A DNA stretch of 60,829 nt, taken from positions 1 to 60,829 of the forward strand of contig JACRNO010000057.1 of NCBI GenBank assembly GCA_016234855.1. Direction: 5' to 3'. The notes beneath the pieces are model-generated. The model made no database searches. It had not been told where the DNA came from and saw only the letters and a program-made list of their open reading frames with translations. The position numbers and the translations under genes were made by a program. This DNA comes from Deltaproteobacteria bacterium. GTDB taxonomy: Bacteria; Desulfobacterota; GWC2-55-46. This document shows, in pieces, positions 49,640 through 57,223 of this stretch; the stretch's first letter is position 1, and each line of letters begins with the position of its first letter.

Positions 49640-49867
49640 TTATTGCGCGTGCTTCCACTGTAAGGTAAGTTTTTTATGTGAAGCGGCGCAGTCCCGGAGA
49701 TAGAGATTTATTAGCGTCTGGTAAGGGACACCGACCTCTTTAGCAAGCCCCTTGAAGTAGCTGATGGTCTCCTCGTCCATACGCAAAGTAACCTGCCGCT
49801 TGAGCCTGCCGGCATAAGGGTTTTTCTGCGCCTTGGAAAAATCGTACTCTTTTCTCATTTCAATCAC
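49640..49867 (-). CDS. brnA: BrnA-type antitoxin
   Basis: 75 residues. R-Q-V-T-L-R-M-D-E-E-T-I-S-Y-F-K near 30 and G-V-P-Y-Q-T-L-I-N-L-Y-L-R-D-C are the BrnA/CopG ribbon-helix-helix pattern. Neutralises BrnT and represses the pair. Overlaps brnT by 4 bases. Confidence 0.85.
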   Translation of the reverse strand: MIEMRKEYDFSKAQKNPYAGRLKRQVTLRMDEETISYFKGLAKEVGVPYQTLINLYLRDCAASHKKLTLQWKHAQ

Positions 49868-50151
49868 CTTTCCTTATAACATTTCTGCTCGGCCCTGGCA
49901 GCCTTTCGGGCGGAAATGATCCTGATCACCTCATCGCTCTCCCGATAACAGTGACAAACCACCAATATTTGAAGGTTTGCGCTTAGACCAAGAAGAATAA
50001 AACGGTCTTCTTCGCCGGAGTGATCCGGGTCATGTATCAGCAAGGCATTTTCATCAACGAAGACCGTGCGGGCTTCGTCAAACGATATTCCATGCTTCTT
50101 TTGATTTGACGAGTCCTTTCCCTTGTCCCAGTCAAAGGCGATGTCTGCCAT
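49864..50151 (-). CDS. brnT: BrnT-type toxin
   Basis: 95 residues. F-D-W-D-K-G-K-D-S-S-N-Q-K-K-H-G-I-S-F-D-E-A near the start and I-R-I-I-S-A-R-K-A near the end are diagnostic for BrnT, a RelE-fold ribonuclease toxin. Here the toxin precedes the antitoxin, as usual for this type. The ATG is at the predicted transcription start. Confidence 0.9.
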   Translation of the reverse strand: MADIAFDWDKGKDSSNQKKHGISFDEARTVFVDENALLIHDPDHSGEEDRFILLGLSANLQILVVCHCYRESDEVIRIISARKAARAEQKCYKER

Positions 50152-52455: not shown

Positions 52456-53586
52456 CTAACGTCCTGAAATAAACCTCGGCAAGAGCGGCGCGTCCTTTGC
52501 CGCCCTGAAGAATATATACGCGCCAGCCAGGAAAAAGATAATCGTCGAGGCCCAGACGGCAAGCACCGGGTTTATACTCGAATGCTCGCCAAGCGCCTCG
52601 AACGCGGTCGAGGCGACATAATAGAGGAGCACCACGCCGAGCGCGATGGTAAAGCCGGTAAACCTCGTGCCGCGCACCTTCTGTATGCCGAGCGGCACGC
52701 CCATGAGCGCGAAAAGGAGGACCGAGACCGGCAGGACGAAACGCTTATGCATATCGATGATTATGCCTGCAGGGTCTTCCCCGCGCGAGCGCATATCAGC
52801 CGCCTTCATCGCAAGCTCTCCTGCGTAGAGTTCGCGGTTCGTCCTTGAGGCCAGCATGGTCTCCGGACTTCCCGTATCGAGTTCGACCATATAGGTCGAG
52901 AAGGCGGCGATGTTATAATAGCCTTTCTCCGCGCTCTGCCTGTGCACGGCCCCGTCGTAGAGCTTCAGGTATACCGAAGAGCCGTTCTCGGGCGCGGCCA
53001 TGACCCCGCGCGCGGCAAAAAAGGTATTCGGCTCGCCGCCCTTCGTCTCCTCGGCGATGAATATGCCCTCCATCTCCCCGGTGCCCGGGGTCACGTGGTC
53101 GACATAGAGCGTCAGCCCCTTGAACCTGTCGTAGAAGGTCTTCTCCTCTACGCCGGAGACGAGCGCCTGCTTTGATGCGTCAAAAACCAGCCTCTTGAGG
53201 CTCAGATTGCCCCACGGAAAGGCATACAGGGTCACGAACAGGGCGCAGACGCTCACGACCGCGGCAACGGCCATAACCGGCTTCATCAGGGTAAAGAGGC
53301 TCATGCCAGAGGCCTTCATCGCGGTCAGCTCGCTGTCAGACGAAAGGCGCGTAAACGCGGCGAGCACCGCCACAAGAAAGGAAATCGGTATCGTATAGAT
53401 GAGAAACGACGGAATGACCGAGGCCACAAAGCGGGCGAGGAAGGGCACACCGGCCCCGTAGACCACGGCGAGCTCGACGAGCTTGACGACCTTGCTGAGG
53501 AGGGCGGTAGCCGTGAAGATGCCAAGGCTTAAAAGGAAAGGGACAATGATTTCTTTAAAGACGTATCGCGTCAGGATACCCGGCAT
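52456..53586 (-). CDS. lptF: LPS export ABC permease LptF
   Basis: 376 residues. Three N-terminal helices (about 10-30, 55-75, 95-115), a periplasmic jellyroll domain (about 125-265) and three C-terminal helices. Opening L-T-R-Y-V-F-K-E-I and S-D-S-E-L-T-A-M-K-A-S-G near 80 (coupling helix) are typical. With LptB and LptG it drives LPS from the inner membrane. Intact, in contrast to the lptG downstream. Confidence 0.92.
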   Translation of the reverse strand: MPGILTRYVFKEIIVPFLLSLGIFTATALLSKVVKLVELAVVYGAGVPFLARFVASVIPSFLIYTIPISFLVAVLAAFTRLSSDSELTAMKASGMSLFTLMKPVMAVAAVVSVCALFVTLYAFPWGNLSLKRLVFDASKQALVSGVEEKTFYDRFKGLTLYVDHVTPGTGEMEGIFIAEETKGGEPNTFFAARGVMAAPENGSSVYLKLYDGAVHRQSAEKGYYNIAAFSTYMVELDTGSPETMLASRTNRELYAGELAMKAADMRSRGEDPAGIIIDMHKRFVLPVSVLLFALMGVPLGIQKVRGTRFTGFTIALGVVLLYYVASTAFEALGEHSSINPVLAVWASTIIFFLAGAYIFFRAAKDAPLLPRFISGR

Positions 53587-54203: not shown

Positions 54204-54323
54204 GAGCGGCGGGCCGCGCCGCTTGCAAGGCCCGGCTCTACACAGAGCAGCTATCTTACGCCGAGAGGTCTTGACATTTGCACTCCGGTCTGTTACTTCT
54301 TAATGTGTACGGAGGTAACGTCC

Positions 54324-54632
54324 ATGAAACCTCGAATGAAGAGATACGCCGTTGGCGCAGTCGCCCTGGGCCTCGCCATTTACGGGGTCTTCGGCAGCGG
54401 CGAGCTGCTTGACCTCTTGCGCGCGCAGAAAGAGCGCGACACCGTCCTCGACGAGATAAAACGCATCGAGGCGGACAACTCCGGCCTTGACGAGAAGGTT
54501 CGCCTCCTTAAGACCGACAGACGTTACATCGCCCACGTGGCGAGGGTCGAACTCGGCATGATAGGCAAAGACGAGATAGTCTACAGGGTCAAGACCCCCG
54601 GCGGCGACGCCGGCCAGAAGCCCGCACGCTAA
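54324..54632 (+). CDS. FtsB/DivIC-like septum formation protein
   Basis: 102 residues from ATG 54324, chosen for the GGAGGT 7 bases upstream. One membrane helix (about 8-25), then a coiled coil (L-L-R-A-Q-K-E-R-D-T-V-L-D-E-I) and the family's I-A-R-x-E-L-G-M-I-like end (V-A-R-V-E-L-G-M-I-G-K-D-E-I). FtsB-type proteins join FtsL and FtsQ at the septum. TTGACA at 54271-54276 may be its -35 box. Confidence 0.85.
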   Translation: MKPRMKRYAVGAVALGLAIYGVFGSGELLDLLRAQKERDTVLDEIKRIEADNSGLDEKVRLLKTDRRYIAHVARVELGMIGKDEIVYRVKTPGGDAGQKPAR

Positions 54633-54674: not shown

Positions 54675-55508
54675 ATGATGAAAAAGGCCCTTAAGCTTGC
54701 CGGCATACAGATGACCTGCGCGCCCGAGACCGGGAAGAACCTTGCAAAGGCCGCAAGCCTCATCGAGATAGCAGCCGGCGAGGGCGCAGGGCTCGTTGCC
54801 ATGCCGCAACTATTCTCCACCCAATGGTTTCCCGCCACCATCGACAAGGCCCGCTTCTCGCTTGCCGAGACCGGGGACGGCCCCACCGTCACAGCGCTGC
54901 GCGAGTTGGCCGCAAGGCTCGGCGTGGTCGTCGTCGCGCCCATATACGAGGAAGACCGCGGCACACGCTTTAACACCGCGTTTGTCATAGACGCCGACGG
55001 TACGATTGCGGGCAAGTACAGGAAGATGCACGTCCCTGCGCTCCCCCTGTGGGAAGAGAAGACCTACTTCAGCCCCGGAGACCTCGGCTTTCAGGTCTTC
55101 AAGACCAGGGTGGCGAATATCGGCGTGCAGATATGCTGGGACGTCTTCTTCCCCGAGGGCGCGCGCATACTGGCCCTCGGCGGGGCGGAAATCATCGTCG
55201 CGCCCACTGCCTCGGCCTTCATGCACTCTGCAGCGCGATGGGAGCGCGCCATAGCCGCCTCGGCGCAGAGTAACGGCCTCTTTATCCTGCGCGTCAACCG
55301 CACGGGCGCGGAGGCGCATCAGGAGTTCTACGGCAGGAGTTTTTGCATGGGGCCTGACGGCGAACTCGTCTCTCCACCGTCCGGCGGACAGGACGGGGTC
55401 GTGCTCGTGGACATCGACCTCGGCGCCATCGCGGATGCGCGATGCGACTGGACGTTTTTAAAGGACAGAAGGCCTGAAGAATACACGGAGATAACGCAGA
55501 AAAAATGA
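54675..55508 (+). CDS. Nitrilase-superfamily protein lacking the catalytic Glu
   Basis: 277 residues, carbon-nitrogen hydrolase fold closest to N-carbamoylputrescine amidase. The active Lys (K117 in K-Y-R-K-M-H) and Cys (C154 in V-Q-I-C-W-D) are present, but the expected Glu is Gln: A-M-P-Q-L-F, Q45, codon CAA at 54807, one base from GAA. Such a change would normally abolish hydrolysis. It could be a pseudoenzyme, a transferase variant or a mutation. Overlaps argS by 4 bases. Confidence 0.8.
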   Translation: MMKKALKLAGIQMTCAPETGKNLAKAASLIEIAAGEGAGLVAMPQLFSTQWFPATIDKARFSLAETGDGPTVTALRELAARLGVVVVAPIYEEDRGTRFNTAFVIDADGTIAGKYRKMHVPALPLWEEKTYFSPGDLGFQVFKTRVANIGVQICWDVFFPEGARILALGGAEIIVAPTASAFMHSAARWERAIAASAQSNGLFILRVNRTGAEAHQEFYGRSFCMGPDGELVSPPSGGQDGVVLVDIDLGAIADARCDWTFLKDRRPEEYTEITQKK

Positions 55509-57223
55509 AATCGCGCCACAACATCAAGGAGATCATAAACTCGGCGGTTCAGGCCGCCAGGGCCGAAGGCCTTATCAAGATCGGGACGCTGCCGGATATC
55601 GTAATCGAAAAATCACGCAAGGACGAGTTCGGGGACTTTGCCACGAATATCGCCATGGTCCTCGCCCCGCTTGAAAAACGCCCGCCGCGCGAGGTCGCCG
55701 CCATTATCGCCGCTAAGATTCAGGATGCGAAAGAGACCACCGGAGTCCCGCTCGTGAAAAAGTGCGAGGTCGCGGGCCCCGGGTTCATAAATATATTTCT
55801 CATGGAGACCTACTGGCTCTCCATACTCAGGGATATACTCGATAAGGGCGAGGCGTTCGGCAGGTCTGAGGCAGGCGCAGGCAAGAAGGTCTTGCTTGAG
55901 TTCGTCAGCGCCAACCCCACCGGACCGCTCCACATAGGCCACGGCAGGGGCGCGGCAGTGGGAGACGCAACCGCCCGCATAATGGCCGCGGCCGGATATG
56001 CAGTAACAAAAGAATTTTACATAAACGACATCGGCAAGCAGGTCTTGACGCTCGGCAGATCGGTCTATATCCGCTACCTTCAACTGCTTGGCAAAAAGAT
56101 TGAGCTGCCAGAAGACTCTTACAAGGGCGAGTATATAAAAGACGTTGCCATTGAATTCCGCAAAGAGAACGGCGACAATTTCAATAACGGGATATTGGAT
56201 ATTCAGGGTAATAACCGGCAGATTGAGCTTCTTCAGCCTTTCATAGATTTCGCAAAGAAACGTCTGCTTGACGATATCAAGACCGACCTTGCCGCATTCG
56301 GCGTAGCCTTCGACAACTGGTTCAGCGAGGCCTCACTTTACAAGCCTGAAAACATCGTAGACAAAGCCATCGAGACGCTGAAAAAGGACGGGTTCGCGCG
56401 CGAGGAAGACGGCGCACTCTGGCTGAAGACCATGGAGCTTGCGAACGACGACAAGGACAGGGTCTTAGTCAAGGCGGACGGGTCAAAGACCTATCTGGCC
56501 TCTGACGTGGCTTATCATAATGAAAAGGCCAAACGCGGGTTTGACATCCTCATAAACGTCTGGGGCGCGGACCACCACGGGTACGAGGCGCGGATACGCG
56601 CGGCTCTGAAGGCATTCGGCCATGACCCCACCATCCTGAAGATAATCTTCATCCAACTCGTCGCGCTCCTGCGTAACGGCGCTCCCGTTGCCATGGGCAA
56701 ACGCGAGGGCGAGTTCGTCACTCTCAGGCAGGTCATGGACGAGGTCGGCGCGGACGCCTGCCGTTTCTTCTTCCTCATGCGTAAGGCGGACGCGCAACTC
56801 GACTTCGATCTTGAATTGGCCAAAAGCCAGGCCCCTGAAAACCCGGTCTACTACGTCCAGTACTGCCATGCGCGCATCAGGTCGATTATAGACTATGCGA
56901 AAGAGCAAGGCGTGAACGTGCCCGCAGACACCGAGGACGAGGCGCTTGCGCTGCTCACGAGCAAGGACGATATCGACCTTATAAAACACCTTGCGCTCTT
57001 TGAGGAGGTCGTCGAGAAGAGCGCCTTAGCCATGGAGCCGCACCGCGTGACATATTACCTCACCGAGCTTGCGGGCATCTTCCACCCGTACTACAACCGT
57101 AACCGCATCGTCACGGACGACGCCGGGCTTACGGCCGGCCGCCTCTTATTGTGCACGGCAACCGCACAGGTCATCAAAAACGGGCTGGGCCTGCTCGGGG
57201 TATCCGCACCGGACAAAATGTAG
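55505..57223 (+). CDS. argS: Arginyl-tRNA synthetase
   Basis: 572 residues, class I. N-terminal additional domain (1-110), H-I-G-H-G-R-G motif near 140 after A-N-P-T-G-P-L, M-G-K-R-E-G in the KMSK position near 400, and the C-terminal anticodon helix bundle ending at the characteristic M. Coupled by ATGA to the nitrilase-like gene. Confidence 0.96.
   Translation: MKSRHNIKEIINSAVQAARAEGLIKIGTLPDIVIEKSRKDEFGDFATNIAMVLAPLEKRPPREVAAIIAAKIQDAKETTGVPLVKKCEVAGPGFINIFLMETYWLSILRDILDKGEAFGRSEAGAGKKVLLEFVSANPTGPLHIGHGRGAAVGDATARIMAAAGYAVTKEFYINDIGKQVLTLGRSVYIRYLQLLGKKIELPEDSYKGEYIKDVAIEFRKENGDNFNNGILDIQGNNRQIELLQPFIDFAKKRLLDDIKTDLAAFGVAFDNWFSEASLYKPENIVDKAIETLKKDGFAREEDGALWLKTMELANDDKDRVLVKADGSKTYLASDVAYHNEKAKRGFDILINVWGADHHGYEARIRAALKAFGHDPTILKIIFIQLVALLRNGAPVAMGKREGEFVTLRQVMDEVGADACRFFFLMRKADAQLDFDLELAKSQAPENPVYYVQYCHARIRSIIDYAKEQGVNVPADTEDEALALLTSKDDIDLIKHLALFEEVVEKSALAMEPHRVTYYLTELAGIFHPYYNRNRIVTDDAGLTAGRLLLCTATAQVIKNGLGLLGVSAPDKM

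Follow-up and report, generated by a model that had tools for sequence, protein, structure and literature searches.

The nitrilase-like gene and its neighbours

The gene considered here occupies positions 54675..55508 on the forward strand of the window, i.e. the whole stretch of 60,829 nucleotides that was analysed, from a contig of a Deltaproteobacteria bacterium. It is an open reading frame with an ATG start and a TGA stop, and encodes a protein of 277 aa. A profile search matched residues 8-256 to PF00795 (Pfam CN_hydrolase) with 186.7 bits (cut-off 23.2), and the AlphaFold2 model of the protein, based on a 63-row alignment, has a mean pLDDT of 94.6. The closest solved folds to this model are 5h8i (MtCPA, the N-carbamoylputrescine amidohydrolase of Medicago; Foldseek TM 0.91, 276 residues, 38% identity) and 6mg6 (H. 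pylori), tied at Z 40.0 each. The profile match over the whole domain and the nitrilase fold of the model together place the protein in the PF00795 fold.

Competent enzymes of the nitrilase superfamily carry a Glu-Lys-Cys triad, which is incomplete in the window protein. An earlier note, made from the sequence alone, had read Gln at the position of the catalytic Glu with Lys and Cys kept, and phmmer alignments bear this reading out. Gln45 (codon CAA, 54807..54809) aligns with the general-base Glu of both MtCPA (5h8i) and PH0642 (1j31), while Lys117 (55023..55025) and the nucleophile Cys154 (55134..55136) align with the catalytic Lys and Cys of the same two structures. A second glutamate, Glu128 (55056..55058), is matched to Glu132 of MtCPA in the 5h8i alignment. 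Val157 (55143..55145) stands where relatives with both Glu and Cys have Asn and where MtCPA has its water-binding Gln161. All five codons are on the forward strand; those of residues 117, 128, 154 and 157 were located by codon arithmetic and checked on the sequence.

Upstream, on the same strand, lies a DivIC/FtsB-like gene at 54324..54632 (PF04977, 54.2 bits), which was scanned as 54303-54632 and whose start at 54324 was selected on the preceding GGAGG. With the NCBIfam FtsB equivalog it reached only 22 bits where 101 are required, and no name more precise than 'DivIC/FtsB-like' is warranted. Downstream, argS was recognised by its profile at 55505..57223 on the forward strand (441.6 bits, cut-off 261.65); it is the sole match above the argS cut-off in the genome. 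The nitrilase-like gene and argS overlap by 4 nt, ATGA (55505-55508). Searches of the window for tRNAs and for RNA families found none. A role in anti-phage defence was considered and rejected, as the window protein matched no family of the PADLOC models at an E-value of 0.001 or better.

Glutamine in place of the catalytic glutamate in the order

A total of 59 genomes were searched, namely the window's own and 58 relatives, and the fetched regions yielded 50 rows including the window. Column 45 (numbered by the window protein) holds Gln in 39 rows, Glu in seven and Pro in four; Lys117, Glu128 and Cys154 are present in 50/50. Within the window's order the gene was found in 41 of 48 genomes (G000-G047), with Gln in 37, Pro in four and Glu in none, and Cys, Lys and Glu128 are invariant across these 41 orthologues. 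Retention of Gln among relatives, on which the earlier note had made its interpretation depend, is thus seen throughout the order, and the case that it had named against itself, orthologues all with Glu, does not apply. Pro45 is confined to genus g6, where four of six species have it and the other two have Gln.

In the seven order genomes without the gene, either no ArgS match was found (G011, G019, G025, G028 and G030) or argS is broken off by a contig end (G045 and G047). The gene therefore appears to be as universal as argS in the order, being absent only where argS is absent or cut. Loss of the gene was considered for G011, which is 100% complete by listing; this was rejected since argS itself has no match in that genome, and the assembly probably lacks this region. 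Outside the order but inside the class, Gln was found in two rows, L037 (from G048) and L049 (from G052); G055 and G058 have Glu, although they belong to the same family as G048.

A control set comprising the four other PF00795 proteins of the window's genome (G000) and 40 hand-picked from the class, including some from genomes without an argS-linked member, was aligned to the family profile, and Glu, Lys and Cys were intact in 44/44. One control protein (L002) aligns Met at column 128.

Gln/Pro rows from all searches, minus ten placed elsewhere on the tree, form a main clade of 42 rows with a total tree length of 11.1 substitutions per site. Along this tree the only change at column 45 is one from Gln to Pro, and none occurred at columns 117, 128 and 154. 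The median number of changes per column is 6 (mean 7.4). Columns with no more than one change number 76 of 267, which puts column 45 in the conserved third of the protein without making it unique there. Pairwise dN/dS by NG86 ranged from 0.06 to 0.26 for nine pairs of close relatives within the Gln/Pro clade; among all pairs compared, dS exceeds 1 in three, the window's own included (dN/dS 0.19 against its nearest relative, dS >1). Similar values were obtained for two other Gln pairs (0.13 and 0.08), for a pair with Ser at the Cys position (L190/L191, 0.06) and for one with Gly there (L177/L180, 0.18); the highest, 0.33, belongs to a nearly identical pair of Glu proteins (L099/L104). Since all of these are well below 1, the proteins are not decaying, and the clade shows one mark expected of a pseudoenzyme, a catalytic residue lost clade-wide under purifying selection.

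These data also bear on whether the Gln codon is a sequencing or assembly error, or the gene a decaying pseudogene. The genome is a draft of 95 contigs, and the window also contains an lptG-like gene with an apparent frameshift, both of which would favour such a view; however, Gln or Pro in 41/41 orthologues and a dN/dS of 0.19 make it extremely improbable. A read or assembly error in particular is refuted by the 41 orthologues, whose conserved Gln is explained neither by chance nor by misreading.

Several other positions differ between the main clade and a comparison group of 54 rows with both Glu and Cys, from which the AguB-like L053-L055 were excluded. Column 157, the alignment counterpart of Gln161 in MtCPA, is Asn in 54/54 of the comparison rows vs 0/42 of the main clade (Val 22, Ile 17, Ala 2, Leu 1). 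Similarly, column 180 is Ser in 40/42 main-clade rows vs Ala in 46/54, column 184 is His in 39/42 vs Ala in 47/54, and column 191 is Arg in 42/42 vs Thr in 26 and Lys in 19 of 54. These four changes would fit a pocket that was remodelled as hydrolysis was removed. Outside the main clade, nine of the ten remaining Gln rows retain Asn157. Whether Gln45 and the loss of Asn157 go together in general was also considered, and an independent-pairs test found no association across the family.

Triad residues and argS across the wider family

A wider sample of 198 loci with a relative was reduced to 126 distinct proteins by collapsing duplicates. It includes the best 80 of 136 relatives from a search of contigs; a search of the phylum gave a match in 110/395 genomes, and loci and regions were taken from the stronger matches only. 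The sequence of one row, L040, is incomplete but includes column 45. Among the 126 sampled proteins, column 45 is Glu in 74, Gln in 48 and Pro in four, and column 154 is Cys in 109, Ser in 14 and Gly in three. Gln or Pro at column 45 is found throughout the order, while beyond it Glu also occurs (74/126 rows in the sample), in some cases next to argS. Lys117 and Glu128 are present in 126/126. No row (0/126) lacks both Glu45 and Cys154: every Ser/Gly154 row retains Glu45, and all 52 Gln/Pro45 rows retain Cys154. The loss of Cys in other lineages, the loss of Asn157 here and the invariance of Glu128 go beyond what the earlier note had described.

Columns 45 and 154 were left out when a tree was made of the family, and the best tree requires at least eight changes at column 45 and at least five at column 154. 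No root was inferred, and on this tree gains of Glu are indistinguishable from losses. The tree is a quick one, with support below 80 on 48 of 123 inner branches. A single clade for all Gln/Pro rows was rejected by the AU test (p 1e-37), as was one for all Ser/Gly rows (p 0.0015), both with groups named after the tree had been seen. Several placements are firm, including L094 paired with a Glu row (branch support 99), L093/L120/L125 (100), a mixed clade of five rows (L123/L124/L175/L181/L183, 100) and a 12-row Ser clade (99). In addition, next to the main Gln clade the Glu rows L042 and L045 form a group with L037, a Gln row (98), from which it follows that either Gln arose separately there or Glu returned. 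Taken with the control set and judged on these alignments, triad loss is a habit of the argS-linked family and not of nitrilase-fold proteins in these bacteria.

Members of the family with other residues make the comparison concrete. Four argS-linked proteins with Glu (L042, L045, L098 and L118) have about 52-56% identity to the window protein and argS no more than 62 nt downstream; unlike the window protein, they have an intact E-K-C triad and Asn157. Four others lack the Cys, having Ser (L184, L197) or Gly (L177, L201) in its place, and keep Lys117 and Glu128; in these the nucleophile is lost and Glu45 kept, which is the reverse of the window protein.

Three further observations concern rows without Cys. 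The argS-linked clade with Ser for Cys consists of L184, L187-L194, L197, L200 and L203, and mirrors the window case with Glu kept. The Gly rows, L177, L180 and L201, are also argS-linked, and Gly cannot be nucleophilic. A distant member, L133:3384-4373, in a record titled Candidatus Tectomicrobia, has Ser for Cys at a locus without argS; it sits on a long branch and its position on the tree is unsure.

The order of the FtsB-like, nitrilase-like and argS genes, from which the earlier note had suggested a housekeeping link, is well kept in the main clade. A same-strand FtsB-like match was found in 40/42 rows and argS in 40/42; the FtsB-like count took any match on the same strand of the locus, and upstream positions were viewed separately from the scripted count. 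In the two rows without argS the sequence stops 55 and 248 nt downstream. As estimated from alignments, argS starts between -17 and +29 nt from the end of the last sense codon in 39 main-clade rows and 156 nt past it in one. In the whole family, argS lies within 600 nt on the same strand in 89/126 sampled rows, and is absent within 600 nt in 27 of the 116 rows with enough flank. A triad residue has been lost in 61/89 argS-linked rows vs 5/27 unlinked rows. The apparent tie between linkage and triad loss is, however, not significant once phylogeny is counted, only three supported independent pairs being available.

The link to argS may be without functional meaning, the gene being simply carried in a housekeeping expression unit and its product acting independently of ArgRS; we consider this a serious contender, at somewhat less than even chances. 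The 27/116 unlinked rows agree with it, as do four f11 genomes in which argS is present and the family gene absent within 1.5 kb. So do loci outside the class where other neighbours are found: L108, L110 and L120 lie directly after secA, and in L095 the nitrilase-like gene precedes a signal peptidase gene, all four on fetched stretches without argS. Signal peptidase also appears in argS-linked loci, the order being nitrilase-like, argS, signal peptidase in L184, and nitrilase-like, argS, a SPOR protein and a gene starting like signal peptidase in L118. Housekeeping company is thus kept even without argS, and a direct action on ArgRS is not the only way to read the arrangement. Against a meaningless link stand the 89/126 rows in which a same-strand argS is found no more than 600 nt away, and the order genomes without the gene (7/48), which also lack argS or have it cut by a contig end.

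A tRNA gene in the gaps of about 110-270 nt between the nitrilase-like gene and argS of other lineages was sought with ARAGORN in 14 loci. None was found in such gaps; the two tRNAs detected, in L197 and L095, both lie outside them. In the mixed Gln/Glu clade, the gene of L123:2468-3478 and of L181:2609-3622 follows a ThiI/NFACT-R-like gene, possibly tRNA-related, which was assigned by Pfam in L123 and by a similar start only in L181.

Comparison with known enzymes and possible roles

AguB/CPA is the top NCBIfam match of the window protein, with which it has Lys, Cys and the second Glu in common. The window protein differs from MtCPA in having Gln for Glu48 and Val for the water-niche Gln161, and it has an alignment gap at the loop that bears the amine-recognising Glu187 of MtCPA. 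Its score with the AguB equivalog (TIGR03381) is 243.1 bits, below the cut-off of 410.25. No match to agmatine deiminase (PF04371) was found in the window's genome (G000, 94.92% complete), and among the 47 class genomes with an argS-family member PF04371 was found only in G043 and G044, both times as a partial match. An AguB-like match, at 38-41% identity, is present in seven class genomes (G049, G051, G054, G056, G059, G060 and G062), all of which have PF04371, adjoining in six and 2 kb off in G054. AguB function was rejected on the score and the absent agmatine deiminase; the AguB substrate is probably not made in the window's genome by the agmatine deiminase route.

According to the report on MtCPA, Glu48 together with Glu132 activates the Cys, and both glutamates are said to attract its proton; the first Glu attracts that proton and donates one to the leaving ammonia, Lys and a backbone NH form the oxyanion hole, and Gln161 and Trp162 hold the catalytic water (PMC4812014). 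In several other enzymes of the superfamily the second Glu is reported as essential, its role being to position Lys, the loop and the substrate and not to stand in for the first Glu (PMC6946656).

The protein could still be an ordinary amidase in which Glu128 becomes the general base and Gln45 merely slows the rate, and both the essential second Glu of other enzymes and the presence of Glu128 in 126/126 sampled rows lend this some appeal. The positioning role reported for the second Glu (PMC6946656) does not, however, amount to replacing the first, Asn157 has been lost along with Glu in the main clade, and the open-licence literature, in the portion available, yielded no enzyme with a naturally replaced triad Glu. 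We regard slow ordinary hydrolysis as unlikely.

A second alternative is an enzyme of altered chemistry, in which Cys154, Lys117, Glu128 and perhaps His184 would catalyse, for instance, a transfer or an addition, Gln45 and Val157 having been selected to keep water out. Cys, Lys and the second Glu are unchanged across the 42-row main clade, the pocket residues Ser180, His184 and Val/Ile157 changed together, and the joint pull of both glutamates on the Cys proton in MtCPA would suit such a role for Glu128. The model of Lnt, an acyltransferase of the same fold, also matches the window protein, though with 46.3 bits it remains far under its cut-off of 132.9. On the other hand, Pro45 in four species abolishes side-chain function altogether, and other lineages have lost the Cys (14 Ser, 3 Gly), so that Cys catalysis is not the common job of the family unless Ser substitutes. 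Altered chemistry is a possible but less probable reading, and a better one than slow hydrolysis. The earlier note had offered 'pseudoenzyme or altered chemistry'; these appear to be the right pair, which the sequence does not fully separate.

The reading favoured here, to which we give about an even chance, is that the protein, conserved and of nitrilase fold, no longer carries out ordinary amide hydrolysis and may serve as a ligand-sensing or structural partner, and perhaps as a covalent binder. As the loss of Glu is kept in all sampled relatives of the order, a job other than ordinary hydrolysis is probable. With the triad Glu replaced by Gln or Pro, and the presumed water-holding Asn by Val or Ile in most of the main clade, hydrolysis would stop; loss of the first Glu and the water residue should end turnover, while ligand binding need not suffer. 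A ligand resembling an amide or carbamoyl compound could still be bound in the pocket, perhaps as a covalent adduct of Cys154, without being turned over.

The idea of a trapped ligand is drawn from engineered amidases. E41Q mutants of the Nesterenkonia AN1 amidase have been solved (4izt, 4izu and 4izv), and covalent active-site adducts are named in the PDB entry titles of two of them, 4izt and 4izu. From alignment ranges, we take E41 of that amidase to be the probable counterpart of Gln45. Unlike these engineered mutants, the Gln of the window protein is natural and conserved; adducts of the same kind might, by analogy, form in the window protein.

The protein would then be a sensor or structural partner co-translated with arginyl-tRNA synthetase, and contact with ArgRS is the most natural guess as to what it does. 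In favour of a non-hydrolytic binder, Cys154, Lys117 and Glu128 are invariant in the clade, Ser180, His184 and Arg191 show little or no variation, and the gene, under purifying selection, has kept its place between the FtsB-like gene and argS. Against it, the strict retention of Cys154, Lys117 and Glu128 exceeds what a pure scaffold would need and would fit altered catalysis equally, and the newly conserved His184 could be a substitute base. No row lacks both Glu and Cys, and Asn157 persists in nine of the ten Gln rows outside the main clade; if Glu was regained near the main clade, hydrolysis would still be useful to the family. Overall, a non-hydrolytic ligand binder or partner is favoured, followed by altered catalysis, with slow ordinary catalysis last.

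A broader proposal, which we put forward as speculative, extends this to the ArgRS-tied family in records titled 'Deltaproteobacteria' and in those of neighbouring groups. Hydrolysis would have been lost repeatedly and independently, through the base or the nucleophile, with the Lys117/Glu128 pocket kept, and the protein would be an ArgRS-associated sensor of an arginine-, carbamoyl- or amide-like metabolite that tunes arginylation or ArgRS stability. Within the available portion of the open-licence literature, no report of a nitrilase-fold pseudoenzyme or of an argS-nitrilase operon was recognised.

Annotation of nitrilase-superfamily proteins by fold only tends towards 'hydrolase', and a label of 'N-carbamoylputrescine amidase' on these genes would mislead. 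The natural E-to-Q replacement across an order, the loss of Cys elsewhere and the seat beside argS suggest instead that the protein acts by means other than hydrolysis, close to a central enzyme of translation. With Gln, Pro, Ser and Gly all occurring in nature, a ready series of variants exists for studying what the fold does without catalysis.

Other genes of the window include the lptG-like gene mentioned above, from 50497 to about 51460 on the reverse strand, which seems broken: its N-terminal part and the rest are in different frames, the remainder being 252 aa that match PF03739 from profile position 91. The break is either an assembly error or a real frameshift. Near it, at 52456-53586, is an intact gene of the LptF/LptG family, and a BrnT-type toxin gene (PF04365, 96.3 bits) lies at 49864-50151 on the reverse strand.
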